A stretch of 64,000 nucleotides of DNA, from NCBI RefSeq assembly GCF_032854445.1, contig NC_088302.1:3522338-3586337 (forward strand), written 5' to 3'. A program made the translations under genes and the position numbers. The notes under the pieces are model-generated. The model was not told where the DNA came from and ran no database searches. It was given only the letters and a program-made list of their open reading frames with translations. The stretch comes from Liolophura sinensis (lineage: Eukaryota > Mollusca > Polyplacophora > Chitonida > Chitonidae). This document shows positions 13,580-62,800 of this stretch, one piece after another (position 1 is the stretch's first letter; every line of letters starts with the position of its first letter).

Positions 13580-14460
13580 GTTTGGGAGAGGGTGCTTAGT
13601 AGAGAAGCATTGTGTGGACTAGGATGAAGAGGTGTTAGGAGAGCTAGGTTGCCTGCCTGGACGCCTGGATAGAATGGTGTTCGGCAGAATCGCTGCTTGA
13701 ACGCCTGGATGGAGAGGTGTTTGGCTGAAGCGCTGCCTGGACGCCTGCTTGGAGAGGCGATTGAGTAAAAGCGTTCAATAGAGGAGCATTGCCTGCCTGG
13801 ACGCCTGGATAGAATGGTGTTCGGCAGAATCGCTGCTTGAACGCCTGGATGGAGAGGTGTTTGGCTGAAGCGCTGCCTGGACGCCTGCTTGGAGAGGCGA
13901 TTGAGTAAAAGCGTTCAATAGAGGAGCATTGCCTGCCTGGACGCCTGGATAGAATGGTGTTCGGCAGAATCGCTGCTTGAACGCCTGGATGGAGAGGTGT
14001 TTGGCTGAAGCGCTGCCTGGACGCCTGCTTGGAGAGGCGATTGAGTAAAAGTGTTCAATAGAGGAGCGTTGCCTGCCTGGACGCCTGGATAGAATGGTGT
14101 TTGGCAGAATCGCTGCTTGAACGCCTGGATGGAGAGGTGTTTGGCAGAAGCGCTGCCGGGGCGCCTGGATGGAGAGGTATTAGGGACAGGGCGCTCAGTA
14201 AACATACGCTGCCTAGACGCCTGAATTTAGAGTTGTTTGGGAGAGGGTGTTCAGTGAACAAACACTGCCTGAACGCCTCGATTTAGAGTTGTTTGGGAGA
14301 GGAAGTTCAGTAGAGAAGCACTTTCTGGTTGCCTGGATGTACCGGTGTTTGACGGAGGCGCTGCCGGGGGCCGGGATGGAGATTATGGAGAGGTGTTTGA
14401 GAGGGCACTCAGTAAATTAAAGTTGCCTGTCTGGACACCTGGACAGAGGAGTGTTTGGTA
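13580..14460. repeat. Minisatellite with 140-bp higher-order unit built from about 47-bp subunits
   Basis: The basic unit is GACGCCTGGATGGAGAGGTG with TTTGGCAGAAGCGCTGCCTG. Three diverged subunits make a 140-bp block whose marker CGGCAGAATCGCTGCTTGA recurs at 13682, 13822, 13962 and 14102. Flanks contain further diverged single subunits. Open frames on either strand here are by-products. Confidence 0.92.
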
Positions 14461-17171: not shown

Positions 17172-20100
17172 ATGAAGACAGGGAACTGGAGCTTGCAGTT
17201 ACAGAATAAAACTTCTGGAAGTGCCGATGATGACAATGTTTACGTAATTCTAACAGCTATGATGTGTTTGCTGTCTGTTCTAGGCTGTATTGCCATTGTC
17301 GTTGTCTACCTGGCATTCCAGCGGCTCCGGACTCCCACCAGAAAGCTGCTGGTGTACTTAAGCGTGGCAGACCTGTTAACCGCCATCGGTAACCTTCTTG
17401 GTATCGTCTGGTTCATCTTCAGTGACAGCGTTCTTATCCACAGAAGTATGGGGTACTGTAAATTCCACGCGGCTCTTACCGTCTTCTCCAGCATCAGCTC
17501 GTTCATGTGGACTTTGACGATGGGCCTCTGTCTATACTTGTGCATCGTGAAGAACAAACCAAAGGCTGTTGAATCACATATGGTGTATTTCCATTTGGCA
17601 TGCTGGGTTTTCCCAGGTAAGTATTAATAAGCGGTTTACTTTATGTGATTGGTGTTTACATTATCCTCGAGATTACACATTTTGCACATCAGTAACCAGG
17701 GCAAAGTCAACCGACCTCGGATTTAAACCTTTTAAAACCGGATTTAACACAATCCGCAACAAAAGTTCCAGTCACAGCAGCCCAACCAGCTACAGACAAG
17801 CATTTTTATTCTACAGAGATGAAAGTTGTCATCATTTATGTGGAGTACAGGATTTTTTTTAAATAAGTCTAATTTAGGAAAGTTACACAAATGTAACTTA
17901 ATTTTGCATATAATTTTGCCCTTTTTAGATTATACTTTATCAGTTTTCGTCTCTAGCAAGGTACGATCAAGTCGAGTATCCGGGAATAGCTGGGTTCAAC
18001 AACGTAACCAATACATAATATAGAAATCTCCTGGGTTATTTATGCCGGCAGAAGATTGCATTTAACGACCACACTTAAAACTGAATGTGTAGACCCTGTG
18101 TCAAAGCGCACATTGCCGATGCAATAAATGTGAATGTCTTCTTGGTTTTATGTTGGAAGCGAAGCGGTTTGTTTAAGAACAGATGTCTGTAATCCGGATA
18201 AAGGGCCTTCAGCAGCCATGCCACCATTAAAACATTTTTAGGAGAATGTGACCGATTACTGCTTGATTTTAGATGATGAGAATAGTCTGACTACCACAGC
18301 GTCCACATAGTGTGATAACCCTCCTTTTTATAGAGAATTTAAAAATGTCAGTAAAAGTCAGATATAACACTTTGGTTGTTGAATGATTAATAAGTCATCG
18401 TTTGCTTTGTCTTTTCCACCAAACCCTTGACAAACCGAAATGCTACAAGGATGAAGTTTTAGCACACACAGGAATATAAAAGTCATTTGATCCATAATTT
18501 TAAGTTTAAGTTCCACCTTTTAGTACCTTAATTTAGTTAATCAGCTGATGTTCTAATCAAAGCATGTCTCATGAAATGGACGTTTTAATTATTCCTTTGT
18601 TCATGGATTGTCGTACAGCATACTCTGACAAAGGCTTTTTGAAAGTTTACACCGTGAATCAAATCAAACATAAACGCACTACTTTACTCGCTAGGAAGTT
18701 CGTACTCTAATAGAAAAATGCTTTGGAAAACATCATGAAGATTAGAAGTAAAAGAGCACAAATCTAACGGCACTTCTACCTGGCACGGTAATCCAAACAC
18801 TGTGCTTACCATAGCGCTATAAAACTTATTGCTGCATAAATTTAGCCCTTAATTGGCATTGATGATACCAGTTTATAACAACGTCTCATTTCAAAGGTGG
18901 AACAGCGCCGATTTTATTCAGTACTCAAGTCATGCCCAATTTGCTTTGCGAAAGAACCGTAATCGGTCGCAAAAGTGTTGTATTGTTCTTGAGTGTAGGA
19001 TAATCTTCATTAGGATAGACCACGATAGACCCTGAACATCAATATCATCGTTCATTGCCCTACTGGACAGACCAAAGAATAATGACTGAACAAGTAAAAG
19101 TAATTAATAGTGATATTGACCACGTCGTGCCTTCGGCGGCATCTGGATTTGAACACTCGTGCACCTAAATGCTCACTGTGCCTCTACTAAACTTCAGTCA
19201 CCAAAATAATCTTATCTGCTGTAAACGATAAATGCATACAAACTAGTATTGTGTAGGGAAATTTGCTGGCAATATGTTTGGGCTACAGTGCATTTTGCTG
19301 GCAACATGTTTGGGCTACAGTGCATTTCGCTGGCTGCATGTTTGGGCTTTAGTGCATTTTGCTGGCTGCATGTTTGGGCTACAGTGCATTTTGCTGGCTG
19401 CATGTTTGGGCTACAGTGCATTTTGCTGGCTGCATGTTTGGGCTACAGTGCATTTTGCTGGCTGAATGTTTTGGCTACAGTGCATTTTCCTGCGGATACA
19501 CAGCTCCCCCATGTAAATTTCCTGCACATTGCGTTGTTATATAGACGAGGTGTTGTATTCTCATGATTTCTCACAACCAAGGTACTGTAAATGTGGAAAG
19601 GCCAATCAAATATACAGCAGTATGGTCTAAAGTTACAACTACAGTGAGTGAACCTTCAATAGCTGCTTGTATTCGTATTCTACTTTCTGTAGATTTACTA
19701 AATTTACAGTATTTATCTCTGTGGTCAAATACAGCAATTCAATGGCGTTACTCAGCCGCGGTTTATACTGTTAGGCACAACTTTTCCCCAAGAAAACAGG
19801 GTTTACGTCCCTGGTGACAAGAAAGCCATTTGTCGAATATTCACTTCTGAAGAATGGGAGTTTTGTATAATAAGGACATAACAAAGACATATAGGAATAA
19901 AAAACAAGAACATAAAGAGCTGAAGGTAGTCACACACGGTATTGATAAACATTCAGTTAGATCACAAATATCGCTTGTTTTGTCAGAAAAACCTGTGGCG
20001 GCATTAAAATTGTCTTAGGGAACAGAACGCTCATGGTAGGATCGATACTAAAGATGATAGCCGGGTTCTATAAAGGTCAGTAAGAGGAAAATCTCGTATA

Positions 20101-32142: not shown

Positions 32143-35100
32143 ATGGCTATGGAAAAGCACTATATTGTCCGAGAGACACACACACGTGGCATCACCGCTC
32201 TCGGATTTAACTCGCACAGGAGGGAAATTCTTATGGGTTGTGAAGGTATATATTCCGCCATTCGGCACACAGCACATTCAGCTTTACAGTTTCATTTACC
32301 CATAGGGACTACAACACGGATATTCTGTTGGAGAATGTTAGTTTTTTCCTGAGAAATTTTCTTTTAGTCAGTAATGAATTTTGGTTTCAAAGTTTGTACA
32401 TATGTCTTGGTTGCGGTTAATATATACATGATATACTGTCTGTGCTGGGAACCTTAGCTGGGCCATGTCTCAGTAAGACTTGTTTCAGTCACAAAACTTA
32501 TGTTTTTGTTACTTTCTGCCATATGTTGAAGTTCTGTGTAGCTATGCTGTCTGTAAAGCAAAGATGTTATTCACAAGCACTGCAGTGTAAAGCTAGAGAA
32601 TCAAGTGTTTTAACTTTAAACACAGCTTGGAAATGGCTTGCATAGGTGGCAGATGCTGAGTGGTGATTGTTTCTATTACCTGATGAAATGTGTTTCTGTG
32701 TGTGTGTGTGTGTGCGCGCGCACGCGCGCGCACCCGTGTATGTGGATGTGGGTTTTTGTGGTTTTTTGGTTTAACTTGATCTGTTCTGGTGTTAATTGTC
32801 CAGATGGTGTTGTGAAGACCTGGGAAGCTGAAAGTGGCAGACTTCTACTGAGTGCAAATGAGCACAGAGGATGGGTAACAGACTTCCTCTACTGGTAATT
32901 TAAATCAGATTTTTTGTCAATGAAAATATTATGTTTGTATATAACTATAAGATTTGATAGCTAGAATGTAATCTGCAATATCCCTGGATCCTCGTACTTG
33001 TGTTTAATATAGACTTGTCTCTTGTTATGCTAATCTAAAGGGCCAAGTATGTTTTTGAGAAGTGAATTTTAAATTAATGATTCTCAGTATTGAAAAATAT
33101 GTTTGCCAAGATTGTGAATGTATGCAGTTCAAGATATTTTGAGTATTACTTTACTGATAAATTCTTTCAAGAGTTTGTGTGGAGTGAAATATAGTTGAGC
33201 TTGGTTGTAAAATAAGTGTTAAATAAGTAAATAAATAAATAAATAGTTTTCCGTGTGCTCATATTGTGAAGTTTTTCTAGTAAAGTAATTTATTTGCAAT
33301 CATTTGTTCAATGTTTTCATTCTGCTGTGTTCAGGTCTGGTGCTAAGCTTGTGTTGTCTGCAGCTAACGATGGTTTTATTGTTGCCTGGGCCTCAGGAGG
33401 TGGGGTTTATGACAGAATACAGGTTAGTGCTGGAAGTGTCATGTTCAGAAACTTTTTTTAACAAACTGTTTGAGTGGGGATCAAAAGTATCAAAACTTAC
33501 ATTGTAAACATTGCTGAAAACACAGTCTAGGGTAGTTTCTCTTTACTTCATATCATCCGCCAGCCATGTGCATATCCTTTGCATACCTATAAAGCCTTAC
33601 AGAGAGTCTAAAATCATTGTCAACAGATTTCTCAGAATTTAGCTGTCATCATTCTAAACCCAACATTGGAGAGCCTGTGTGAAACCTGGTCATACCTTAC
33701 CTGCTCTTAATCCCTGTGATTTTAAATGTTTAAGTGTTCCAAGCCTGATAGTTCAGTAATTTATTATACACTGTTTTCTTAACCTATACTCTTTTTAAAA
33801 CCAGGTAATAATTTGCAGTATTCACAAAACACAGTTTCTTGCATATGTATACCTACATATACTGTTTCTCAACACATGTTAAGTATTCAGTATGACAATA
33901 TCCAAAATTATGAGGGAGTACGGGTGCCTTAATTTATGTAGCTGTGTAGGGTTCTGACTATATTTATTTTATGACATGTTATGATTATTGCCTGTAATAT
34001 CCTTGTCCTGAGTGTCAGGTAATTAAAAGTGGGACACCTGCTCTGACTTTCCATTGGCACAGTTTATCTAGCAGCTGTAAAAACAAATTTCTTCAGTAAT
34101 AAGAACAACAAACTCATTCCTGATGTGTACTTTTGTTGGGTATAGATTGGCATGCCCGTGTACTGTATGGCTATCAATCCTAGAAGACAACAGCTTGTTT
34201 GTGGAGTTGTCGGGGGTATCAAGGTCTTCTTATTGGATCAAGGTAAGCTAACTGGTTTTTTTATTCTCGGTGTTTGTATGAGTTTCTATACCAAGTCATA
34301 TAATTTACAACATATGTGAATTAAATATTTGAAGTAAATATCATACTAATAACATAATGTTGGTATCAAGATCGCGCTGTAAATTTTGTCTTAAAGCATT
34401 TTATGTCTTTTTTTGTATCTGTTTTCTTTTCATGTGTACTTTATGCCATGTATTTAATATCACATTTAAACCTAAAGAAGAATGTAAAAGACTTTCAAAT
34501 AATCATTCATTTTCTTGTCCTAAATCACAGAGCGAAACTGCGGTCATGTAGTGAACACAAAGGCCCTGTATTTTGCCAGAGAACACACAGACATCGTCAA
34601 GTGTATCATCTGTAATGAGTCTCGTATCTATTCTGCTGGGTGAGCAACTTTCCACTCAGCTTTGTTTTCAAAATTTATGTGTGCTTTGCTTGTGTAAATA
34701 AATACATGTCATTATCTGAAGACATTTGTTATATGTTTGAATGTAAACTATAAGGTATAGTGGTGATGCCCATGTGTTATGGGACTGGAGCTAATCTACT
34801 CACCCATTACCATTTAGAAAGAAATTAACATTCTTGACACAGCAATGATGACAATGGGAGACTCGAGCTGCACAGAAGGTCTAAACTGACAGTAGAATAC
34901 GAGGTTTTCTTCTGTGATATTGCAGTGCATGTGTACTTCATATATGTTAATTGAGCAGACATACACACTGATAATTGTGACGCAATAAAGGAAAGAACAA
35001 ATAAGTTCACAGCCTTGGTCTGTCTTGATACAGACAGAAAGGGGTTTTACGAATTCCCCATTAGATTCTAATATAAATGTGTTGATCTCCCAGCCTAAAC

Positions 35101-38100
35101 TGATGTGTTTGCAGACAGATATGTATTCATCTACCAGCCTAAACTCATGTTTTTGTTGACAGATATGTGTTGATCCCCCAGCCAAACTCATGTTTTTGTA
35201 GACAGATACATGTATATGTGTTGATCTCCTGGCCTAACTGGATGTGTTTGTTGACAAATTTGTGTTGATCTCCCAGCCTAAACTCATGTGTTTGTTGACA
35301 GATATGTATTGATCTCCCAGCCTAAACAGACGTGTTTGTAGATAGATATATGTTGATCTCCCAGCTTAAAGTCATGTTTTTGTTGACAGATATGTGTTGA
35401 TCCCCCAGCCTAAACAGATGTGTTTGTAGATAGATATGTGTTGATCTCCCAGCTTAAAGTCATGTTTTTGTTGACAGATATGTGTTTATCCCCCAGCCTA
35501 AACTCATGTTTTTGTAGACAGATATGTATTGATCTCCCAGCCTAAACTCATGTTTTTGTTGACAGATATGTGTTGATCCCCCAGCCTAAACTCATGTTTT
35601 TGTTGACAGATATGTGTTGATCTCCCAGCCTAAACTCATGTTTTTGTTGACAGATATGTGTTGATCCCCCAGCCTAAACTCATGTTTTTGTTGACAGATA
35701 TGATCAGAAATTGGTGATATATGATTCCTCATATACTGGGGATAACAGCCTGGAACCCATTGTTATGTGAGTTATTTACATGCTTGTACTGTGTGAGAAG
35801 TTTACTGGCATATGTCTGTTCTGCACATCTACATGTATATGTAAAATTTGATCTTAGCTGTGGTGATGGTATGTAGCTGCACCATACCTTATGTTGTCAG
35901 CACATGTTTAAATAGGTTTTTCCAGGCACATAGTAAGCACATGATGAAGGGAGGTGGTTTTTAGCCCAGCTGTCTGGCCTGATTTCCTAAAGATACAAAC
36001 CTGATTAACATTGTATACGTTAAGCTTTGTTTAGTTGCAACAGTTATAAGACCAATAAAATAAGTAAGGAAGTATTAGATAGAAAGTCTACACATATGGT
36101 AACCTTGTGACATTACTCTTCCTAACCTTAGCTTTTATAATATTACTGTACAGGTACGTCTTTCACTGGTTATATATGGGTTCTCTCAAAATACTTGTGT
36201 TGTGTTTCAGCAACCATAAAGCTCACAACGCTGGGATTTCCTGCCTGATTCTGGCTAAAGACAATGAGAACAACACATGGTAGGTGTATTGAGTTTTCTC
36301 TAGAAACAGGTTTTATTGCAACTTATTAGGATTAGCAGTTATGCTACATGTATTTGTATTAACTGAAGTTGTTCCAGTATTTGATATCAAGTTACAAGGG
36401 TACTAAGCCTATTTAAGAATGTTTGTCCTGAACAGGGCTTTTTAGCTGCCTAAACTAAAGGGGATAGTATATGGAAATTTTTCATTGATATCTGAGTAAT
36501 CAGTCACTTTCAATTATTCATGAACTATTCATTCTCCTTTGCAGACTATGATACATTATATGTGTATATATAACATATACTTTCAGGATATTTACTGGAT
36601 CTTTTGACAAGACAGTAAAGATCTGGTCAGCTGACGGCAAACTTGTTCACCGATTGGACAACTTCGTAAACACAGTGTCTGGTATCTGTTACGTACCTCA
36701 TTGTAAGACTATCTGGGTGGCCGGGGGCTCGTCTTACGCCAGTCTGTTTGACCCCAAGTCAGGGGATAATGTGAGTCATTCACTTCGCTGTGTCTGTATT
36801 ATGCCTCCGTGACATGCATACATGCATGTTTGTATTAAAGATCAAATTGGTGATTTAGGTCAATTATTGAAAGCTATGTATGCATAGTGGTAACTCTGTA
36901 ACCTCAGCTTCAATACTGCTTCAGTGTGCAAGTCATCTTCAGTTTAATAATGTGAAACATAAGATTGATGAGTCTGATATGGTGAGTCAGGAGTTATCTC
37001 CCCTAGTCCACTTGGAACTTTCAGGCATGCACATCTTTCTAAGCTAGCAAATGATTCAATTTCTAGGTTCATTTGTGTTTCATTTTTTATTTTTTATCCT
37101 AGTTGCTGTATTCCTACAGGTTTCAGATTTCATTGGGACGTTCCAGCATGAGGAAGAGGAAAAGTACTATCTACAGCAAATGAGCTTCTCCCCAGAACTG
37201 AATATGCTGGCAGGTAGGACAGGGCAGACCCAGAGGAGATAATAAATATGTAGGGATAGTAGATTTGTTGTCAGATGCTACAAACTTTGGATGTGTCTGA
37301 ATTCTGGAAAACAAATACTGGCGATAATTAAGCTACCAGTGGTTGTCGTTACCATTGTAGGTCTTTTTAAGTCATGAAAATGTAATTTTGTAAACTTTAA
37401 GAAGTAAGCTTGAGCTATATAATATTACATATTTACACTTAAAATGACGGCATGAAACTTCAAATACATAAACTATTTGTTTTTGAAGCTGCACACTTAT
37501 GGCAGACAAATAAATTATTCCTAGTGTATTACCCGTTTGTTTGTTTCCAGCATCAACCAGTCGTCGTCATATGATCGTGTGGAAGTACAACTCCTCAGGC
37601 TGTATCACAGCACTCAAGTGGCGCACCCAGCTGGAGAGTCTCTGCTATAGTCAGTCATCACGCTTCCATATCTTCGTTTTTGGGCTTAATGTGGAATTCA
37701 TGCTTTGTTTATACACAACATGCTGCTTATGTTTTCCCTGCAAATTTGGCATTTTAAAACAATTCATAATTTTCATTAAGAATATTTCTTAATTGCGGAA
37801 GGTGAAATGATGTATAGCTCGACGTTACAAAGTAAGACATGGTATTGCGAGTGGGGGAAAGTGTCTACTCTGTTTATATGAAGTCTCAGAGCAATATATA
37901 TCCTCCTGGATATGCTTTGAAGATTTAGGAATCTGATATAATATATGAATTATGTGTATAGGGTTTGGAGTCAGAATTAGTAGGCTATTATAGACATTGT
38001 GATTTTATTTTGTCTTTTTGTACATTTTCTGTATAGGCATGTTATTGTTTTGCTCCCTCAGTTACTAACAGTGCGTTAACAGGTACATGTACATAGCAGT

Positions 38101-41100
38101 TTATGATCAGGTTTTTTTCACTCAGTTGTTTTTGTTCATGTTAACAATAATGATTAATTGATTTTTTTTGTTCTGATTTTCAGCACGAAAGGTGCCAATT
38201 CTGATTTTCAGTGGTGACAATGAAGGAGCTGTCATAAAGTGGGAGAGGATGCAGTCTAACCACTTCATGTACAGGTCAGTCAGAAATGTTGGAAGTCTCA
38301 TGAATGGTAATAACATGAGAGGTGATAATGATCTGTGTAAGTGGTAACAGTCAGATGGTTTGATCTTTTATATTTTTTACAGTTAGTATTTTATTTTTTG
38401 TAACTGTTCAGTCATGTGACATTTGTTGTCAGAAGTTGAAATACAAATGTTATATGAATCTTTGTCCCAGCTTTTACAAATAAGTGCAGAATAGGTTTTG
38501 TAAAGAAAAGACAGCTTACGATCCCCCTGCCCTCCATTCTTCTTATTATACCCGCACTATGGTGCTTCTTTTAGCAAGAGAGCTGTGGAGTAACAAATGC
38601 ATGCATTGAAACCTGAGATGACTTCACATCTACTCTCATCAAACTACTTCTCATATGTTTCACATCTAAGCTGAAGGAAAAGTGCACATTAAATTTTTTC
38701 ATTCATATACTTACTTCCCAGAGTTTAACAAATTGTCAGTTTTTGATCTGATCACATGCATGATGGGAAATGTATCTCAACAGTGTGTAACCTGGAGGAA
38801 GTATCAGTCACTACTGCACCATGGTTGGGATGAAGTCTAGAGGGGGCGGATGTATGATGGGCTTACATGTGCACTGGTTGCTTTCTCAGTCCATTAATTA
38901 AGGTTTCCATATATTTAGGCTACTGATGTTGTATTTTTTACTGTACCATTTGAACATTTATTGTGATTCCTACTCATATGTTGAATATAGTGGACCAATG
39001 TCATAACTGTCATAACACATCCTATTGCTCCTATATTTCAGTTGAACCATCTTCGGTGTCTACCATATCTTGGAGTCGGGACTTTATGTCATACGCAAAT
39101 TTATTAATTTATTTTCAGCAAGGAGTCTTTTATCTTAAGTGACTCCAAGATAAAGAAGACTCGTCGTACAGGTAGCAAAGCGAGGGAGTTGATGCTTGAG
39201 CAACAAGAGTCAGAGGAGGAGAAGGCAAAAACGGAAACTGGCAGCAGCTTTAGCAACAAAGTCATTACCAGTCATTACACTTTTAACCAGCCTGTCATCC
39301 CACCTGTAAGTACACCTGTGTCTCACAGCCATTACACCTGTACCTTTATACTAGTCATTACACCTTCAAGCATCCTGTCATTCAACCTGTCATAACCATT
39401 ACACCTATATCTGTGTAACAGTCACATACACATTTAATCAGCCTGTTATCCCACCTGTAAGTTCAGGTGCTTGTTACAATCTTTCTTAAACATTCAACTC
39501 TTGTTTTGTCACATGGTTTGTATTGAACACATTGGCGCATTCTTTTTTTGTAACTGATTTGAACAGCTAATTGAATAGCTAATGTTGAATTTCGAAAGAG
39601 CTATTTAAAGATTATTAATATGCTGCTTTTTGTTATTATTTTGGTAATTATTAAGCATTTTCTCGGGGACATGAAGGTAATTGCTTGTAACGTTGTTTTC
39701 TAGCTGTTTTATATACAGGAAGGATTATACTGCATGTGTGTTGCATGAAGGCTGTGTGCTCAGTATACCTTTGTATGTACATGTATGCAAATGTCTATGT
39801 ACTGATAGACATCCCTCTGTTCTTAACTATTCTCAATCCATCAACAGCTGCTTTATACAGATATTATAATTTACTATAAACTGTAATTTTCCATGAACAA
39901 GAATTTTCCATAAACTTGAATATTTTAACTTGCAGTGTATTGTATTTTTGCAGGGATTATAAACAGTATTTTGAATATGTTTTACCTGCTTCTAGCTGTG
40001 CGATATTTAAGTTTATACATGTAGTTTGTGTAGAATGCAATATCCCTGGAGTGGTAAAGGTGATAAGTGAAGTAATTATGCAATTAAGGTGAAGTTTTAT
40101 AATTTATTGAAAAATTATAAGGAATTTACCCATGGCTTTCAATTATAAACAAACTGTGTTCGCTCTCTGATAAAGTGCCACCGTATATTTTGATTAAATA
40201 CAACATATTCAGCTCAGTCAACAAGCTTAATAGACCATGTACAAACCATGGTGAACTGGAATGCATTTTTATTTGCACATGCCATTGTATACATGTATAC
40301 CAAAACTGTTTGCATATATACATATTCTAGCTGTCGTGATCATGTATTTACCTCACTATTTGCTTTCAAATTATACTGTGTGTAATTGTCATATTTTTTA
40401 TTTGACATTTTAAAAGTATCTTTCACCCTTTATATTATTCATCAAATTCTCTGTTCTACAACTTGTTGATTACTTTTTGTGTAATGTTTGTAAATTAGAG
40501 GATATAGAGTGTAGCACACATTAAATGATATTATATTTCATAGCAAAGATTATTTGCATTAAGTGTTTCTCCTTGCTAAATCAAGTGAATTTCTAATATT
40601 ATACAATGCTGTCAGTTTTGAGATAGCAGTGATCACCAGAAAAAAGGCTGTTCATTGCCTTCTGTGTACCTTGTCATGAGTCTAATGCTATGCTTTCTAT
40701 TGCAGGTCTCCACCCACAAGCATCCTCATACGACCATTTCAAAGATCATATTTGTGGAGAGTCTAGACTACATTCTGGCGGCCTCAGAGGACAGTAACAT
40801 ATGTACGTATATTTTGATCTTTTCACAGTCATTTGGACTGAAAGTGAAGTAGGGTTGAGGATGAGATTATTTGAAAAATCTTCAGACCTTGCACACATAT
40901 CACAGATGGGAAGGTGGCTTATTTGTAAATCCCTGCCTTGTGTGAAGCAGGTCCTTGATTCATTGTTATGTCAAAAAATGATTGTTACAATGTATTAATT
41001 TCTACAGTTCACATCATTTTGTCTTTCAGTACATGACGTCATAATGCTGAGCTGTGAAAGGAACATTTGACATCAGTAAAATGGCATCACAGTCCTTGTG

Positions 41101-44100
41101 CCAGACCTTTGACAGGTCCTCATTTAGTACTATGTATACATCTGATTTGATTTAATTGGTGTTTTGCGCCGTACTCAAGATTATTGCACCTATATGACGG
41201 CGGCCAGCATTATGGTGGGATGAAACCAGGCAGAGCCTTGGGGAAATCCACGACCATCCCACTTACGGCCGGAGAGCATACATCTGAAGGTGATAACATA
41301 CACTTGTCACCTCCAGTATGTATGCAATCCAGTCAATGCCAGGTTAAATGCATAATGCTATGTTTTATACTGTAATATACCTACACTGTAACCAAATTTC
41401 AGCATGACTGTACAATACATTCATACATCACATATGTTAGCTTTTGGCTTTAATTAACCTGATACAACTTGTATAGTAGATTACATTTCACCTTACTGTA
41501 TGTACAAAGGCAAGCAAACCTTTACATTTCCTCTAAATGTAGTGTTCAAATTTTTGAACTTCTGGGTACCCGTTATGAATCGGTCTAACTTGTGCCAGGC
41601 ACTACTTCCGTGATGTCCATGACGACATATAGTGAATACACAAAAACACCACTAATAGTGCTGAGGATGCAATGGTGTGACAGTGCCCCTGTCATTTGCA
41701 GATGTATGACTGAATTGACTTGCCTGTTTCAGCTGTATGAATGAATTGACTTGCATGTTTCAGATGTGTAAGGTTTTGACTTGCATGTTTCAGATGTGTA
41801 TGGTTTTGACTTGCATGTTTCAGATGTGTAAGGTTTTGACTTGCATGTTTCAGATGTGTACAGTTTGACTTGCATGTTTCATATGTGTAAGGTTTTGACT
41901 TACATGTTTCAGATGTGTGGAGTTTTGACTTGCATGTTTCATCTGTATGAATAAATTGACTAGCATGTTTCAGATGTGTGAGTTTTTGACTTTCATGTTT
42001 TAGAAGTGTGGGCTTTTGACTTGTTTGTTTCAGATGTGTACAGTTTTGACTTGCATATTTCAGAAGTGGAGTGTTTTAACTTGCATGTTTCAGATGTGTA
42101 GGGTTTTGAATTTCATGTTTCAGAAGTGGAGTGTTTTCACTTGCATGTTTCAGATGTGTAGGGTTTTGACTTTTATGTTTCAGAAGTGTAGGCTTTTATC
42201 TTTCATGTTTCAGATATGTACAGTTTTGAGTTGCATGTTTCAGATGTGTACGGTTTTGACTTGCATGTTTCAGATGTGTGGGATTTTGACTTTCATGTTT
42301 CAGATGTGTATGGTTTTGACTTTCATATTTCTGAAGTGGAGGGTTTTGACTTGCATGTTTCAGATGTGTACGGTTTTGACTTTCATGTTTCAGATGTGTG
42401 GGGTTTTGACGACGCTGCGGTCGGGGTCCTGAAGAACATGAGGCCCCATGACTCTGAGTCATTGATCAGGAAATTTGCTATATTACTGGATAATGATTCT
42501 GCTCTTCTTCCTCAAAACACCAAAACAACCAATGTAAGTCCATGCTGTCATTCTACTAGGAAAGGAAGTGTAATATATGTATATACGTATAACCATATAA
42601 CATGAAGGGTAAAGTGATCATATGTTAAAAAAACTTGTTACCTTTCACAGTGTGCTTATGTTCTAATATCAGGTACATGCACATGTGCTTGGCTCTGCAA
42701 ATCATTTCTCTGTTATGTCTATTATGTATCATTTTCGCAGACTTTAGCATCTCATTTACTGTATGAATATATATTGTGATTTTCACAAGCCTTGAATGGC
42801 CATAGACAAAGTCTATCTTGGTCTAGCTGTGTAACCTGTCTAGTGAGTTCCACATGAAGAGCCAAATTGAGTACGGCGATTTATGCAACAAATAGCATTT
42901 CCAGGATCTAACAACTTAGCGATTGATGGTGCTCATCTTTGCATTTGTGCAGTCTAACTTTGGTTGAGGACCTTGGTGTGCATATCTGTATGCTACACAT
43001 GAGGAAGGTGGTCATTAACTTCCTGAAACACAGGCACTTGGGTTTTCCCCACCCATATGCCTGAATGTTAAACAACAATCAGATCTATCAATAAATAAAC
43101 AATAGTTTGTTCTCTAGTGCATGTCAATTCATCGGATCATTTTGATCACCAGCATTCTGGAGGAATCAGGAGGCTGGCTACTTGCTTACTATTTAACAAT
43201 ACATCACTTTTTGTGTAGGGTTATTGTAATTTCATAATCTTTGTTTAGCATTGTTGGCATCTGTACAAATTTTTTTCAAGTTCTCTGTCAATTCTTAATG
43301 CTTGTGAGATCATTGTGTTGTAGGAGAGTGATTCGGTGACCAACAGAGTGGCAGGTTTGTGTGCAAATATGTGTTATCTGAGCATGTCAGCTGTGTGACT
43401 AGCATGTAGTTATTACCAGAGAGCACGGCTTTAACAGTACTTATGTGGTGAGTAATGTGTAATCTTTGCCTCACTATTTTGAATCTTAATTATGTTCAAA
43501 CGTTTCATTTGATTTGTTCAAACAGATTACGCGTTGTAATTTTTATTGGTCAGATATTTTTAATCTCAGGAAAAGCCATCATGTTGCTAATGAAAGTTGT
43601 TATCTGAAATTTTGTAATTTGCAAAAATTGGGCAGTGTAACTCAGTACTTCTCCTCTGAAAGGAACTCTTATCTGCCAACTGCCAGCAAAACTCAGTTGT
43701 GTCAGTACGGTATTTGCCCTATTTATGCCATACTTTCAGCAATGTGATAATACATACTAAAAACCATGTTTTATAAAGCCATGCCGCATGTTTTGGATAG
43801 NNNNNNNNNNNNNNNNNNNNNNNNNNNNNNNNNNNNNNNNNNNNNNNNNNNNNNNNNNNNNNNNNNNNNNNNNNNNNNNNNNNNNNNNNNNNNNNNNNNN
43901 NNNNNNNNNNNNNNNNNNNNNNNNNNNNNNNNNNNNNNNNNNNNNNNNNNNNNNNNNNNNNNNNNNNNNNNNNNNNNNNNNNNNNNNNNNNNNNNNNNNN
44001 AGCTGTAGTACAGAACAGCAGGGAGACCTGACAGACGTGGCCTGTGATGGGGTTATCCTGGACATGGACTACAACCCTGTAGCATGAGTACATGACACAT

Positions 44101-47100
44101 ATCATAGCTGTAGTACAGAACAGCTGGGAGACCTGACAGACGTGGCCTGTGATGGGGTTATCCTGGACATGGACTACAACCCTGTAGCGTGCGTACATGA
44201 CACATACCGTACATCTAGTACAGAACAGTAGGGAGACCTGACAGACGTGGCCTGTGATGGGGTTATCCTGGACATGGACTACAACCCTGTAGCGTGAGTA
44301 CATGACACATATCATAGCTGTAGTACAGAACAGCAGGGAGACCTGACAGACGTAGCCTGTGATGGGGTTATCCTGGACATGGACTACAACCCTGTAGCAT
44401 GAGTACACGACACATATCATAGCTGTAGTACAGGACAGCAGGGAGACCTGACAGACATGGCCTGTGATGGGGTTATCCTGGACATGGACTACAACCCTGT
44501 AGCGTGAGTACATGACACATATCATAGCTGTAGTACAGAACAGCAGGGAGACCTGACAGACGTGGCCTGTGATGGGGTTATCCTGGACATGGACTACAAC
44601 CCTGTAGCATGAGTACACGACACATATCATAGCTGTAGTACAGAACAGCAGGGAGACCTGACAGACGTGGCCTGTGATGGGGTTATCCTGGACATGGACT
44701 ACAACCCTGTAGCGTGAGTACACGACACATATCATAGCTGTAGTACAGGACAGCAGGGAGACCTGACAGACATGGCCTGTGATGGGGTTATCCTGGACAT
44801 GGACTACAACCCTGTAGCATGAGTACATGACACATATCATAGCTGTAGTACAGGACAGCAGGGAGACCTGACAGACGTGGCCTGTGATGGGGTTATCCTG
44901 GACATGGACTACAGCCCTGTAGCGTGAGTACATGACACATATCATAGCTGTAGTACAGGACAGCAGGGAGACCTGACGGACGTGGCCTGTGATGGGGTTA
45001 TCCTGGACATGGACTACAACCCTGTAGCATGAGTACACGACACATATCATAGCTGTAGTACAGGACAGCAGGGAGACCTGACAGACGTGGCCTGTGATGG
45101 GGTTATCCTGGACATGGACTACAGCCCTGTAGCGTGAGTACACGACACATATCATAGCTGTAGTACAGGACAGCAGGGAGACCTGACAGACGTGGCCTGT
45201 GATGGGGTTATCCTGGACATGGACTACAACCCTGTAGCATGAGTACATGACACATATCATAGCTGTAGTACAGGACAGCAGGGAGACCTGACAGACATGG
45301 CCTGTGATGGGGTTATCCTGGACATGCACTACAACCCTGTAGCGTGAGTACACGACACATATCATAGCTGTAGTACAGGACAGCAGGGAGACCTGACGGA
45401 CGTGGCCTGTGATGGGGTTATCCTGGACATGGACTACAACCCTGTAGCATGAGTACACGACACATATCATAGCTGTAGTACAGGACAGCAGGGAGACCTG
45501 ACAGACGTGGCCTGTGATGGGGTTATCCTGGACATGGACTACAGCCCTGTAGCATGAGTACACGACACATATCATAGCTGTAGTACAGGACAGCAGGGAG
45601 ACCTGACAGACATGGCCTGTGATGGGGTTATCCTGGACATGCACTACAACCCTGTAGCGTGAGTACACGACACATATCATAGCTGTAGTACAGAACAGTA
45701 ATGATGGTGTGAGCTTTTAACATGCCAACACAGGAGGTATAAACATTTTATATTTCACATGAATAGAGGTTGAGGTAGTAATTTAATACGGCATTGCTTA
45801 AACATCATTGGAATGACAACGGGTAATGTTATGCTAATATGTCTGTACATGTATGCTCAGGTGGCCATAGTGTTGTTGTTTACTGAGCTGGTTTTAAAGT
45901 CACAGGCAGTGGCCGGAGCTGATTCAACTGAGGCTTTGTACCGGGAGGTTTGCACATGTGTACCACAGTATGTGGTGAAGGTCACTGCATGGCTTATTCC
46001 AGACAGGGGGAATATTAACCCTCAACAATCTGTAGGTTTGTGATGTTAAATAAATGTCAGTGTGGACTGTGTAAATACTAACCTGAACATTTACATTCAT
46101 TAACTGCATCGAACGTGTTAACGTCATCAAATTTCTTTGAGCTTGTAACTTTTGTTTTATACATGGATGTTATACAGGAAAGAACTTGCTTAATTCCTGT
46201 AATGTGATGGTACTATTTTTATGGGAATTACTTTGAGCATGTATGCTATGAATGATTGAATGATTGGGTTTTAAAGTTACATTATCAGTATTTCAGCCTG
46301 TGATAGCCTTTCCCTAACAAACTATTCATTCTGTTGTAGGAATGAGTTTGCTTATGCTTCCTCTGATAAGATGGTGTACATCAGGAAGTTCTCAACCGTG
46401 GGGACGAAGATGAGGCTGGTGAACACGTTACAGGGCCATGACGGGGACATCACGTGTGTCGTGTGGAACAAAGTCAGGAACAAGTGGGTCACAGGCTCTG
46501 AGGATTCCACCATCAGGATATGGGTATGTCGGCTACACAGCCACATTGCTCTAGAAAGTTAAAGGTGGTAATTACTGTACGGATGATGAGTTATAAATAA
46601 ACATACACATTAGACAGACTCTTATGCTAGTGGCGAGAAAGGGAAGTACATACATCTACACTTCTGTAAACACACACACATACCTTCCTCCCAGAGACTA
46701 TTACATAAAGTATACGAAAAATCATATTCTGAGAAATATTTGTTAATGAATTTGCTCGTAGATATTCTCTTGACATCATTCCCTTTTGGATATTTTATCC
46801 CTCACAAAAACACAAGTTTACAACAAAGAACGCTATTGAACAGTTGTGTGTATTTGTTATGCAGGCTGGTGATGGGATGAACGAGTGTGAGCAGGTGCTA
46901 GCAGCTCCAGGAGGGGTCTGCTGTATGTGTGTGGATGTGTTCAATGGCTGTATAGTGGCAGGGATGCAGAATGTCATCAGGTATGTTCATGTCATCAGGT
47001 ATGCTCATCTATCAGATTATAAACAACTCGTACACAGTTGTCAAAATGGATCCTGTACTATTCAGATAAGCTGTCCAATAAGTTTATTGGAAAAGCTCAA

Positions 47101-48472
47101 TTTTCTCCTGTTCTTATTACATTAGAATTGCCAGCCCACACTCTGGTCTTGTTGAGGTATGCTTATGTGTGTATGGGTGAAGCTTTCTGTCCTGTAACTC
47201 GGGTATTTTGCTGCAAAAACTGAACTTATATGTCTTAATTATGTCCATCCGTAGCACTAGGAGTGGGTCATGGCCAAGTTGTCAAAGGTGCTTTCTTTCA
47301 CTAACTGGAACACATCAGGTGTGAGTTCAAACCCAGAATTGTACAGGAAGTTATTGGATTGCGTCATTCTCACTCTTCAGTGATGTATGCCAGGTCGATA
47401 GTTCCACTTACACAAAGATGCTGTGAACATATGTACTATCTGTACATCACATATGGGAAAGTAAACCACAAAGACTAGTGGTTTACCCAGTTTGTCCAGT
47501 TTGATCCACCCATAAACTGTCTGCCATCATACACATGTAAGTGAGAAATTTTGGGTATGCATTCAACAGCACTCAATCATTGATGTGTAACAGCTGATCT
47601 ATGTGTGTTAACAGAGTGTATGACACAGAGGAGTATAGATTGGTACAGACCAATATGGGCCACACAGACTCTGTGAGGAGCATCATTCACATCCCTGAGA
47701 GGAATCAGGTAGGGTTGTTTGACTGGTGGTTGTATAAATCAGGTGCTACAATATCTACAATGTGGACAAAGTCTGTGTGCTGCTGTCATGCACCAGAGCT
47801 TTCCTAGTCATATTGTTTGACACAGTATTACATGTACTCACATGCTCAACCATCTCTGTCTTCAAAAGCAAAACTGTGGAATTACCAGAGTTTGTAGTTT
47901 GAGGCAGTAAAACTCACTCTTACTTGCGAGATCATGATACTCACTAACTGGCTACACAGTCAAGGTATAGAATTACCATCTACAGGAGATTTGTACATAC
48001 ATGTATGTGACGGATAGTTGATGCAGGTGGAGGCTGACACACAGTCCAGCAGTCGATGAAGACCAGTTGCCTTTCAGCAATGTGCCATTATAGTTTTTGC
48101 ATCTGTCCATCACACGTGGGAAACATGATGTCAGTAACTTGGCAAGGCCCTTGGTTTACCATGGGCACTTCAGCTTTCTCCCTCCATAAAACTTACTACC
48201 AAATGTATGTGTATGTGGAATGATAGAGCTTCTAATACATTATAATACAAACCGTTCAGCGTTTTATCTTACAGTATGTCTCTTGTTCATGGGACAAAAC
48301 AATACGTGTGTGGAACGCGTGGAAGAGGGTTCGCAGGAAAACCATGCCAAAATCTGAGAAAGGAGTTCTCAAGAAAGAGGAATATCTTACAGAGAGGACT
48401 GAGGAAGGTTTTGAAGCGGATGACAAGGAGCTGGATGAGGAGATCAGAGAGGAAAACAGCCCGTCCCCATGA
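32143..48472 (+). CDS. Large WD40-repeat protein, about 736 aa, 20 exons, unnamed
   Basis: Exons: 32143-32245, 32804-32894, 33335-33422, 34146-34242, 34531-34639, 35698-35766, 36211-36279, 36587-36770, 37120-37213, 37551-37649, 38184-38274, 39119-39305, 40706-40802, 42394-42533, 43324-43354, one copy of the array at 44001-45695, 46340-46523, 46865-46980, 47615-47708 and 48275-48472. Phases agree throughout. WD40 strands include DGVVKTWE (about 35-42), GSFDKTVKIW (213-222), GDNEGAVIKW, ASEDSNIYVWGFD, ASSDKMVYIRKF, GSEDSTIRIW (592-601) and SCSWDKTIRVW. The length suits two beta-propellers. A charged, helix-like insert (about 366-427, KARELMLEQQESEEEKAK) separates them, and an acidic tail ends the protein. 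Function is unknown to me; such proteins are usually scaffolds. Exon 15 (31 nt) is the weakest: skipping it is phase-compatible if an AG three bases further downstream is used in the array. AATAAA at 48830-48835 probably ends the transcript. Confidence 0.88.
32692..32740. repeat. TG/CG alternating tract
   Basis: A run of TG dinucleotides passes into alternating GC/GCAC in intron 1 of the WD40 gene. Alternating purine-pyrimidine of this kind can adopt Z-DNA. Confidence 0.85.
35078..35697 (+). repeat. 44-bp minisatellite ending at the exon 6 splice acceptor
   Basis: About 14 units with TTTTTGTTGACAGATATGTG and TTGATCCCCCAGCCTAAACT as their main parts occupy the end of intron 5 of the WD40 gene. 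Each unit carries GTTGACAG followed by ATATG. The last GTTGACAG (35690-35697) is the acceptor of exon 6, which itself begins ATATGATCAG, so the unit spans the exon boundary by five bases. The 44-bp period is not a multiple of three, unlike the array before exon 14. Confidence 0.9.
39427..39462 (+). repeat. Duplicate of the exon 12 end and its splice donor
   Basis: The stretch reading TTTAATCAGCCTGTTATCCC followed by ACCTGTAAGT nearly repeats the end of exon 12 and its donor (TTTAACCAGCCTGTCATCCC, ACCTGTAAGT, ending at 39311). The DNA between contains further CATTACACCT fragments, so the whole piece looks like a decayed local duplication. Confidence 0.75.
41146..41285 (-). mobile_element. SINE fragment, reverse orientation, WD40-gene intron 13
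   Basis: The minus strand carries GGTCGTGGATTTCCCC, CATAATGCTGGCCGCCGTCA and GAGTACGGCGCAAAACACCA. The tRNA-like head is missing. Confidence 0.8.
41695..42412 (+). repeat. 30-bp minisatellite whose last unit is the exon 14 splice acceptor
   Basis: About 24 units of the type TTTTGACTTGCATGTTTCAG + ATGTGTACGG fill the end of WD40-gene intron 13. Each contains TTTCAG, a usable 3' splice site. The final unit is the real acceptor (CAG at 42391-42393), and its next 19 bases are the start of exon 14 (VWGFD). The period is a multiple of three, and the frame of exon 14 stays open upstream to about 42186. Confidence 0.93.
43801..44000. other. Assembly gap (200 N)
   Basis: Exactly 200 undetermined bases directly adjoin the exon array. 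A round gap length usually means unknown true size. The array probably continues into it. Confidence 0.99.
44001..45695 (+). repeat. Tandem array of a complete WD40-gene exon, 105-bp unit, at least 16 copies
   Basis: Units start at 44001 and every 105 bp to 45576, with a partial unit at 45681. Each holds a 3' splice site (TAGTACAG), a 70-nt exon encoding (E/D)QQGDLTDVACDGVILDMDY then NPVA, and a 5' splice site position. The exon fits the gene only once: it joins phase 1 upstream to phase 2 downstream, which matches the exon at 46340. GTGAGT or GTGCGT donors occur in the units at 44106, 44211, 44421, 44631, 44841, 45051, 45261 and 45576; the other eight have AT instead of GT. The 44211 unit also has an in-frame TAG. 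The 44631 unit (exon 44644-44713) is a consensus copy with an intact donor. Units at 45261 and 45576 encode His for the second Asp of DMD. A 200-N gap cuts the 5' end, so the true copy number is unknown. Confidence 0.93.
46972..47008 (+). repeat. 18-bp tandem duplication of the exon 18 splice donor
   Basis: TGTCATCAGGTATG occurs twice, 18 bp apart. The first GT (46981) is the annotated donor. Using the second would add 18 nt (RYVHVI) in frame and without a stop. Confidence 0.8.
47262..47590 (+). mobile_element. Probable tRNA-derived SINE, WD40-gene intron 18
   Basis: GTGAGTTCAAACCCAGAATT resembles a B box, preceded by a tRNA-like GGGTCATGGCCAAGTTGTC. A later part (GTTTGATCCACCCATAAACT, GTAAGTGAGAAATTTTGGGT) resembles other SINE 3' ends in the window. 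Confidence 0.5.
48110..48235 (+). mobile_element. SINE fragment in the last WD40-gene intron
   Basis: Diverged match to the 57700-57872 element: CACACGTGGGAAACATGATG, CAGTAACTTGGCAAGGCCCT and TTTCTCCCTCCATAAAACTT, ending some 40 bp before exon 20. Confidence 0.5.
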
Positions 48473-50464: not shown

Positions 50465-51265
50465 ACACTCCATTTTGACAAAATCATCCTTCCAGTCTTC
50501 ACCCTCAATCCTTTGACTGCATAAACCCCTGACTTCACTCCCTCCTGTCACAAACATACATCTCTGATTTCACACTCCATCCTGTCACAAACATACATCC
50601 CTGATTTCACACTCCATCTTGTCACAAACATACATCCCTGACTTCACACTCTATCCTGTCGCAAACATACACCCCTGACTTCACACTCCATGTGACTTCA
50701 CACTCCATCCTTTCACAAACACACATCTCAAACATCACACTCCATCCTGTCACAAACATACATCCCAGACTCCACACTCTGTCCTGTTCCAAACATACAT
50801 CCCAAACCTCAAGCTCCATCCTGTCACAAACATACATCTCAGACTTCACACTCTATCATGTCCCAAACATACATCCGTGACTTCACACTCCATCCTGTCC
50901 CAAACATCCATCCCGGATATCACACTCCATTCTGTCACAAACATACATCCGTGACTTCACACTCCATCCAGTCACAAACATACATCCCAAACCTCATGCT
51001 CCATCCTGTCACAAACATACATCTCAGACTTCACACTCTATCATGTCCCAAACATACATCCCTGATTTCACACTCCATCCTGTCCCAAACATCCATCCCG
51101 GATATCACACTCCATTCTGTCACAAACATACATCCGTGACTTCACACTCCATCCAGTCACAAACATACATCCCCAACCTCACACTCCATCTTTTCAAAAA
51201 TATACATCCCTGACTTCACACTCCATCCTGTCAAACATACACCCCTGATTTCCCACTTGTACTGT
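50465..51265. repeat. 37-bp minisatellite downstream of the WD40 gene
   Basis: About 21 units of CTGTCACAAACATACATCCC then TGACTTCACACTCCATC, with substitutions and a few indels. Some multi-unit blocks repeat (about 50820-50960 against 51000-51150), showing higher-order copying. Confidence 0.93.
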
Positions 51266-60884: not shown

Positions 60885-62800
60885 GTTTTTTTTACCTAAT
60901 TCTGTTTAAGACGTAGTACAAGGGGGCGAATAAGTTGATGTTGTTTACTGTTGGAGTAAAACCCTATCTGAGGTGGATAGACAAGAGGCCGGATTTCACG
61001 GGTTGTGTGCGACGGTTTGCCGACTATCACATTGCTCTGGTTTTACTATATATGCTGAAGTCTTTGTATAATTCTGCTGGTGGACTAAGCATCCCCGAAA
61101 CCTGGTCCCTGAGCATTGTTTTAATGTGATTGTTTGTTATATGTGATCACGACACAGCGTTTTGAGTAATTCTGGACCAGTTACGTCTAATAAATTGCAG
61201 ATAACATCACTGCATATTTTTACCTGGTTCTGCTTAATCCGTGGTGTAATGGAACGTGTAAATTGCTATTATTTATGCATTTACATGAAGAGTTAAGAGT
61301 GAAACCCAGAATGGGGTAAATGGGCGAGAGGCCGTTTTTCAACGGTTGTGTGAGATCATTTGCCAGCTGTTTCACTGCTGTCACACCGTGATTCTGATGG
61401 TGGAGTCACCATCCCGAGGTATGGCTGTCGTCACACCGTGATTCTGCTGGTAGAGTCACCATCCCGAGGTATGGCTGTCGTCACACCATGATTCTGCTGG
61501 TAGAGTCACCATCCCGAGGCATGGCTGTCGTCACACCGTGATTCTGCTGGTGGAGTCACCATCCCGAGGTATGGCTGTCGTCACACCGTGATTCTGCTGG
61601 TAGAGTCACCATCCCGAGGTATGGCTGTCGTCACACCGTGATTCTGATGGTGGAGTCACCATCCCGAGGTATGGCTGCCGTTACACCGTGATTCTGATGG
61701 TAGAGTCACCATTCCGAGGCATGGCTGTCGTCACACCGTGATTCTGATGGTGGAGCCACCATCCCGAGGCATGGCTGCCGTCATACCGTGTTTCTGATGG
61801 TGGAGTCAGTGGAGTCCCGAGGCATGGCCCATTTGCAGCGTTTTAATGTTAGCATATTTAGTGTAATGACAATACAGCATTTCCAACCATTCTAAACCAC
61901 TGACGTCAAATGCATAGCAAATATCATCAGAGCATTTCTTTATTTATTTTATAAATTTATTTCACCTATTTCTACTTATGTCGTTGTGCGAGGGGCTGAT
62001 TGAGTTGCTACTGCTTAAGTATTATTTAAGCATTTATATGGACAGTTGAGTTGAAACCCTGACTGGGGTTAACTGACATGACGCTGTGTTTCACGGGTAA
62101 TATGTGAGACCATCTGCCAACTATTACACTGTCGTCACTGCTCTGGTTTTACTCTCTTTGTGTCAAAGTCTTTTATATCGCACATGGGGAATCGACAGAA
62201 TACCACGTGATACACATAGTTATAGATCAGGCAGCTTTTCAGACTGCACGTCACAGAGGCGCCCTCCTAGAGCGATGTCACTAATGACATGTCAAAATGG
62301 AGGTACCATTCCATCTGACTTCTTGTGGTACTCCCGTTGTTTTCCGTCTTCGATATCATTAACGGTGCCGTCCATAAGTTTAATTGCTCAAAACTGTTAG
62401 AACATAATTAAATTTCTTAAACACAAATTCCACTAACTTATACTACCTCTTCGGCATTTGTCATTCTGTCTGATAGATAAATCGTACATCCATGTAAAGT
62501 CCTAGCTACAATGCACATTTACATTTGCATTTTGCGTAATTCTAAACCAGTGACATCTAATAACTTGCTATTAACACCACTGCATATTTTTTACCTAATC
62601 CTGCTTAAGCCATGGTCCTAGGGGCTGTGTAATTTGCATCTGTTTAATTAATTATGTGAATAGTTGGAATAAAACCCTGACAGGTAAATTGGCAAGAGAC
62701 CGTATTTCACCGGCTACGCATGACCATTTGGCGGCTAACACACTGTCGTCGGTGTTCTGGACTTGCTCTCCGTGTTGTATGTCTTTATTATATTAATTAT
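60885..62800 (+). repeat. Tandem array of a roughly 330-bp repeat, about four units
   Basis: Units begin with TTTTTTACCTAATTCTGCTT at about 60888, 61216, 61957 (diverged) and 62587. Each continues with GGGGGCG-like sequence, a GAATAAAACCCTGACTGAGG-type module, an AAGAGGCCGTATTTCACGGG-type module and CACTGTCGTCACTGCTCTGG, and several end with GTAATTCTAAACCAGTGACA. The second unit is interrupted by a 50-bp minisatellite. Single copies occur elsewhere in the window in both orientations. Confidence 0.8.
61372..61830. repeat. 50-bp minisatellite nested in the 330-bp repeat
   Basis: About nine units of TCACACCGTGATTCTGCTGG then TAGAGTCACCATCCCGAGGT and ATGGCTGTCG. The unit resembles the single segment ATTCTGCTGGTGGACTAAGC then ATCCCCGAAACCTGG in the neighbouring 330-bp unit, so it is an internal amplification of that segment. 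Confidence 0.9.

Follow-up and report, generated by a model that had tools for sequence, protein, structure and literature searches.

The stretch of DNA analysed here (the window) comprises 64,000 nt of the genome of the chiton Liolophura sinensis (NC_088302.1, positions 3,522,338 to 3,586,337) and contains a gene for a WD40-repeat protein, exon 15 of which lies within a minisatellite of 105-bp units, each carrying a copy of the exon. Judged from the sequence, the gene most likely tolerates this array as a minisatellite and always uses the same copy of the exon, instead of choosing among many. The copy used is probably the first one, which would lie in a scaffold gap and keep the native 3' splice site, and the others would be tolerated as an intronic minisatellite. 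The features are listed in Table 1.

Table 1. Coordinates of the gene, its exons, the arrays and the gap (window positions, unless a survey stretch is named)
Feature	Position	Strand	Description
WD40-repeat gene	32143..48472	+	19 modelled exons, 708 aa
44-bp x 14 minisatellite across exon 6 3' splice site	35077..35702	+	ends in exon 6, acceptor in unit
30-bp x 23 minisatellite across exon 14 3' splice site	41715..42410	+	unit of 13 nt intron + 17 nt exon
Exon 14	42394..42533	+	ends in phase 0
200-N scaffold gap	43801..44000	.	adjoins the 105-bp array; placeholder length
105-bp tandem array	44001..45698	+	18-nt tail of a cut-off unit (44001-44018) + 16 full units (44019-45698)
Exon 15 copy 7	44652..44713	+	example with GT donor
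Exon 16	46340..46523	+	starts in phase 2 (GC/G)
Second whole-exon array	L020:3232-3669		in another WD40 gene; 141-bp unit, 98-nt exon (2 mod 3), three copies, 43-nt spacers
Acceptor-side array	L024:5494-6389		7.3 x 122 bp; gene matching PWP2
Acceptor-side array	L027:4585-6984		20 x 120 bp; gene matching G-beta-5
Donor-side arrays (7)	L017, L026, L029, L031, L032 (two, one weak), L034

Exon 15 and its 105-bp array

The gene model was built from anchored open frames and splice sites, and was chosen to be open. Its exons agree in phase and give a single frame with the sole stop at the end; the donor of exon 12 is weak and was set by phase, and additional exons are possible. The encoded protein matched the Pfam WD40 family (E = 4e-40), in line with the WD40 gene named by an earlier reading of the letters without database searches (the sequence-only reading). 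Searches of PDB and Pfam returned only generic WD40 matches, and the gene was left unnamed. To fit between the phase 0 end of exon 14 and the phase 2 start of exon 16, exon 15 in the phase-consistent model is 62 nt long (GGAGACC..GTAGC), or 65 nt with the preceding CAG. Several propeller profiles matched across the exon 15/16 join, all of them below curated cut-offs. The agreement of phases and these profiles make it very likely, as far as sequence evidence goes, that exon 15 is a genuine coding exon. A search of the assembly for paralogues with the protein of exons 15-17 gave 18 matches, all within this gene (contig C8).

Tandem Repeats Finder (TRF) reported the array with a period of 105, 16.2 copies, 96% match, 0% indels and a score of 3102, which bears out the earlier claim that a coding exon is tandemly repeated at least 16 times; the array runs to 45698 and not, as first given, to 45695. 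Each unit consists of CAG (or a variant), a 62-nt copy of exon 15 and 40 nt of downstream intron, and the spacer between exon copies is 43 nt. The sequence-only reading had divided the same 105-bp unit into a 70-nt exon and a 35-bp spacer, and this version breaks the frame; its acceptor was the AG at offset -8, the sole acceptor of normal strength in the spacer, which is out of frame. Unique intron sequence begins immediately after the last unit (ACAG/TAATGATGG), at the point at which a further unit would start CAG/GGAGACC, and the register of the unit is thus fixed at its right edge.

The 16 exon copies contain five variable sites in 62 nt, three of which change an amino acid (V>M, N>S and D>H). 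The variants are structured: GT and AT donors alternate from copy 4 to copy 14, and the S, M+H and ACG variants are shared. The copies are 96% alike, with shared variants in recurring order, and lag-4 neighbours differ least (2.3, the pairwise mean being 3.1) in a small number of comparisons among copies 3-16. The donor-changing GCG>GCA is a CpG transition across the exon/intron junction, and two other common variants, at exon position 16 and intron position 10, are also CpG transitions. Such transitions are expected if gene bodies are methylated.

The copy number of 16 is a minimum, the left end of the array being hidden by the adjoining gap. The assembly was made from PacBio high-fidelity (HiFi) reads with a mean length of 8,347 bp at 14x, and has 1,110 gaps and 0.0364% N, according to the assembly paper (PMC11068029), which first named the species Liolophura japonica, a name since corrected to L. 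sinensis. Since 1,110 gaps of 200 N amount to the stated 0.0364% N, 200 N is a placeholder length. We infer that the gap hides the left end of the array together with the native 3' splice site of exon 15. The contig end falls exactly inside the array, suggesting that the array itself caused the break. A search of the 609-Mb assembly (609,464,459 bases, 632 contigs) with the 105-bp unit gave 16 matches, all at the array. No second contig that would close the gap was found with the 501 bases left of it, which match in full only here; with 40 of 122 candidates scored, their 46 other matches were partial (67-82% identity) and represented dispersed-repeat fragments. The segment just left of the gap (43465-43798) belongs to a dispersed repeat, found at about 39 other places in the assembly among the matches listed from the same scoring.

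Frame outcomes, splice signals and the copy used

Inclusion of a single exon 15 copy restored the 708-aa frame in 16 of 16 cases. Skipping of exon 15 resulted in an early stop, as did two-copy joins in all 120 ordered pairs and read-through between neighbours with a retained spacer in 15 of 15 cases. Joins of two to six copies of one unit also stopped early, 62 nt not being a multiple of 3, and among the mis-splicing outcomes tested only inclusion of an extra CAG avoided truncation. Because single copies keep the frame, and skipping, read-through and two-copy joins stop early, the rule for this gene is one copy or no protein. The sequence-only reading was right that only one copy is usable by frame and that reading through the spacer stops early. 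It had further argued that the cell must choose one exon from many or lose the protein; the frame upholds the alternative of one copy or no protein, but a choice is not what the splice signals described below point to.

Each copy had been credited with both splice sites. An AG was present directly before the exon in 15 of the 16 copies, copy 2 being the exception, with scores of -3.5 to -5.5. A donor GT was present in only eight copies (2, 3, 5, 7, 9, 11, 13 and 16), and the other eight (1, 4, 6, 8, 10, 12, 14 and 15) had AT. The in-frame acceptor at offset -3 scored -0.3 to -4.8 (15 copies scored). Leave-one-out scores of the 17 true acceptors of the gene ranged from 1.4 to 13.0, placing the in-frame acceptors of the array below all 17. 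Pyrimidines made up 38-44% of positions -20..-5 in the array (15 copies measured) vs 56-81% at the 17 true sites, and the last 25 nt contained 3-4 upstream AGs in array copies vs 0-1 at true sites.

We propose that exon 15, together with the 3 nt that precede it and the first 40 nt of the next intron, was tandemly duplicated and that the array then expanded. The unit would begin at the acceptor AG, so that the native branch point and pyrimidine tract would lie outside it and serve the first copy only; this placement of the native 3' splice site is deduced from the right-edge register of the unit, the left edge lying in the gap. If unequal exchange keeps the register of the ends, the left edge of the array should begin at the exon 15 acceptor. 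The spliceosome would then join exon 14 to the first copy, and this copy in turn to exon 16. The 16 or more other copies would be spliced out with the intron, since they have poor in-frame acceptors and since spacers of 35-43 nt are presumably too short for introns. The unused copies would drift freely, half of them having lost the donor GT through the CpG-to-CpA change, and the array would be without effect on the protein.

The second whole-exon array, which lies in survey stretch L020, has a visible first copy. The acceptor of this copy scored 10.3, and the corresponding acceptors of the next two copies scored 0.8 and 0.6; the third copy is 89 nt, 9 nt shorter. With one upstream-exon base assumed, joining one copy left the frame open into the next exon, and joining zero, two or three copies resulted in a stop. 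By its sequence, this array shows in full the layout predicted for the exon 15 array.

Several points weigh against use of the first copy. This copy and its acceptor fall outside the assembled sequence. The out-of-frame acceptor at -8 scored 4.8-5.4 in 14 of the 15 copies (1.0 in copy 3), which is within the true range, and some aberrant splicing into the array would be expected from it. The internal copies of L020 likewise contain an AG scoring 7.7, seven nucleotides inside the exon and out of frame. Seven of the eight GT donors in the exon 15 array scored 4.2 (copy 2 scored 1.9), with true donors ranging from 3.2 to 10.4. The splice-site matrices were derived from 17 sites each, all from one gene. 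Finally, a further exon in the interval from exon 14 to the array might change the argument from phase, but the phases as modelled are already in agreement.

The array may instead be damaging the gene by causing aberrant splicing, which, in this animal at least, would deprive the locus of some or all of its function. Truncation of the protein by the tested mis-splicing outcomes other than the extra CAG, the normal strength of the -8 acceptor and the dependence of exon 6 on the last of 11 acceptors (see below) are consistent with such damage. The other 18 modelled exons, however, hold phase over 708 aa with no internal stop, albeit in a model chosen to be open, and similar arrays are found in genes with matches to PWP2, G-beta-5 and myosins, genes that the animal presumably needs. 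We consider damage unlikely.

Equally improbable in our judgement is a mutually exclusive choice, in which any GT-bearing copy could be taken, exactly one per transcript, and some proteins would carry M, S or H. The frame permits exactly one copy, eight copies keep GT, seven of them scoring like true donors, the spacers look too short for neighbour-to-neighbour splicing, and the copies differ by three amino-acid changes. Half of the copies, however, lack a donor, and the in-frame acceptors fall below every true one. The copies are also near-identical, so that little would be gained by choosing, and with three of the five variable exon sites changing an amino acid there is no sign of selection on the copies, the numbers being tiny. 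A further version, to which we give still less credence, is that the pre-mRNA draws one GT-bearing exon, that short spacers and nonsense-mediated decay enforce its single use, and that turnover of units, through array length and donor loss, acts as a heritable dial on the amount of full-length protein; if this were true, exon drawing would, with dense genic minisatellites, often underlie differences in expression in this chiton.

An assembly error beside the scaffold gap is the least probable explanation, for although the array adjoins the gap and was assembled from reads averaging 8,347 bp at only 14x, the structured variants among copies point to real turnover of units, the visible 1.7 kb is shorter than the mean read, and gap-free arrays of a like sort occur in other genes.

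Arrays at other exons and in a survey of gene stretches

Minisatellites also cross the 3' splice sites of exons 14 and 6 of the same gene (Table 1). At exon 14, five upstream acceptors are in frame and would add 10, 30, 40, 50 or 60 residues of a 10-residue repeat, making this array a possible source of protein length variation on the evidence of its sequence. At exon 6, only the last of the 11 acceptors tested keeps the frame, and 6 of the 10 others score at least as high. A rule of taking the site nearest the exon's partner splice site would serve both exons.

The survey covered 20 stretches of 10 kb, which were picked for clustered WD40 or myosin matches among the matches listed and thus are not a random sample. 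Dropping arrays with a period below 20 reduced their number from 40 to 34. These 34 arrays, found in 14 of the 20 stretches, made up 21,509 bp (10.8% of 200 kb), and ten of them, in nine stretches, straddle an exon, with coding DNA and a splice site in the unit. Four of the ten (L024, L027 and the two in L032) were found by eye and stand outside the enrichment tests. The 32-bp array of L032 is the weakest of the ten: its TRF start lies 54 bp past the conserved coding segment, to which the array was linked by eye via degenerate copies. Coding support came from a local WD40 profile, which detected 86 sense vs 0 antisense segments (the profile was built from 46 of the same matches), and from myosin paralogues and PDB matches. 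The 82-bp exon of L032 alone (a 32-aa piece) had no PDB match; when hand-joined to the upstream exon, the piece aligned to myosin-Ic.

Targeting of minisatellites to splice sites was considered and rejected, as 6 automatically scored contacts were found vs 13.8 expected under uniform placement. The edge test gave 6 observed vs 8.8 expected, and 12 of 274 coding-segment ends lay within 40 bp of an array, arrays with that margin covering 12%. Under a null in which long coding overlaps are avoided, 5 contacts were counted vs 5.2 expected; L020 was left out of it for a coding overlap of more than 60 bp. For these enrichment tests, paralogue segments resembling dispersed repeats were removed with a hand-made list of peptide motifs, and the coding map consisted of domain segments only and is incomplete. 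Among the 34 arrays, 13 carried either splice signal on the sense strand vs 8 on the antisense strand, a bias that is suggestive only. Dense minisatellites and tolerance suffice to account for such arrays, and special targeting to splice sites is not needed.

Five further minisatellites in the window are untied to gene models (5819-5969, 13649-14312, 19262-19492, 50520-51257 and 61380-61808), and by eye the 50-bp and 29-bp units among them hold donor-like motifs. The segment at 41150-41350 looks like a conserved molluscan short interspersed element, presumably a V-SINE such as RUDI. Elsewhere in the assembly, contig C99 has seven COX1 matches about 15.5 kb apart, with one more on C632; the assembly has probably strung copies of the mitochondrial genome together in tandem as C99.

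Comparison with known systems

In mutually exclusive clusters, such as those of Drosophila Dscam and metazoan Mhc, the alternative exons differ in sequence and each has working splice sites. The exon 15 array is like them in that one exon is repeated in tandem and a single copy is usable, all 120 pairs and skipping leading to a stop. It differs in that the copies are near-identical, with five variable sites and three amino-acid changes among 16 of them, and in that, by their sequence, the copies appear not to have working sites on both sides, half lacking a donor and the in-frame acceptors being weak. In expansions of the Lp(a) kringle type, symmetric exons are repeated and all copies are translated; an exon of 62 nt is not a multiple of 3, and joins of several copies stop.

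That no described gene is arranged in this way, as the sequence-only reading had supposed, is wrong in kind, since minisatellites across exon-intron boundaries have been published from amphioxus, where they are called mirages, and from human CBS. The human CBS gene has a 31-bp variable number of tandem repeats, c.1444_1467+7(16_21), in which 16-21 units cross an exon-intron boundary (PMC2630376). Read from this notation, the CBS unit comprises the last 24 nt of the exon and 7 nt of the intron that follows, whereas a complete exon is repeated here. Human genes in segmental duplications have likewise been reported to carry internal tandem repeats, averaging about 4 units, at their exon-intron boundaries; these were described as lengthening the exon or intron and possibly making new introns (PMC2812944). 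As in the exon 15 array, expansion of a minisatellite there alters gene structure at exon edges, but the available part of that paper describes no whole-exon array. Tandem genomic duplication has been put forward as a source of introns (the Rogers model; for potato RdRp, see PMC4974935); splice signals are duplicated within a gene as they are here, but no new intron is proposed here.

In the available excerpts (PMC3087553, PMC3902484), the mirages of amphioxus are reported from Adh3, globins, troponin C and PGBD5, many but not all units keep the AG/GT signals, and the clusters are unstable. Adh3 data and globin reverse transcription PCR suggest that they leave regular splicing undisturbed. Units span one boundary, as in the globin BflGb6 (6 and 3 units); in PGBD5, repeats overlap an exon (2 or 7 x 60 bp, and 3 or 6 x 108 bp), and a predicted exon of two units is unconfirmed (PMC3087553, PMC3902484). 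The exon 15 array resembles the mirages, as described in these excerpts, in that its units carry splice junctions together with coding DNA (CAG, a 62-nt exon whose phases fit, and 40 nt of intron) and retain the signals in part (GT in 8 and AG in 15 of the 16). Turnover of units within the cluster, reported for mirages, may occur here too. Unlike the mirages of these accounts, the array has a whole frame-shifting exon in each unit and 16 or more units, and occurs in a mollusc.

No report of such arrays in chitons or other molluscs was found in the open-licence PMC literature, and two features seem new, the repetition of an entire frame-shifting exon in at least 16 units and the frequency of such arrays in a mollusc. 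Automatic gene models and short-read data may err in such genes. Seven survey arrays lie at donors, two survey arrays and two of this gene at acceptors, and one survey array and one of this gene around a whole exon; together they provide natural experiments on how the spliceosome picks one of many near-identical sites. They extend the amphioxus curiosity to a mollusc, in which two whole frame-shifting exons, in this gene and in L020, have been multiplied in minisatellites. Repeats lying across exon edges are an oddity already known, and the exon 15 array appears to be an unusually complete example of it.

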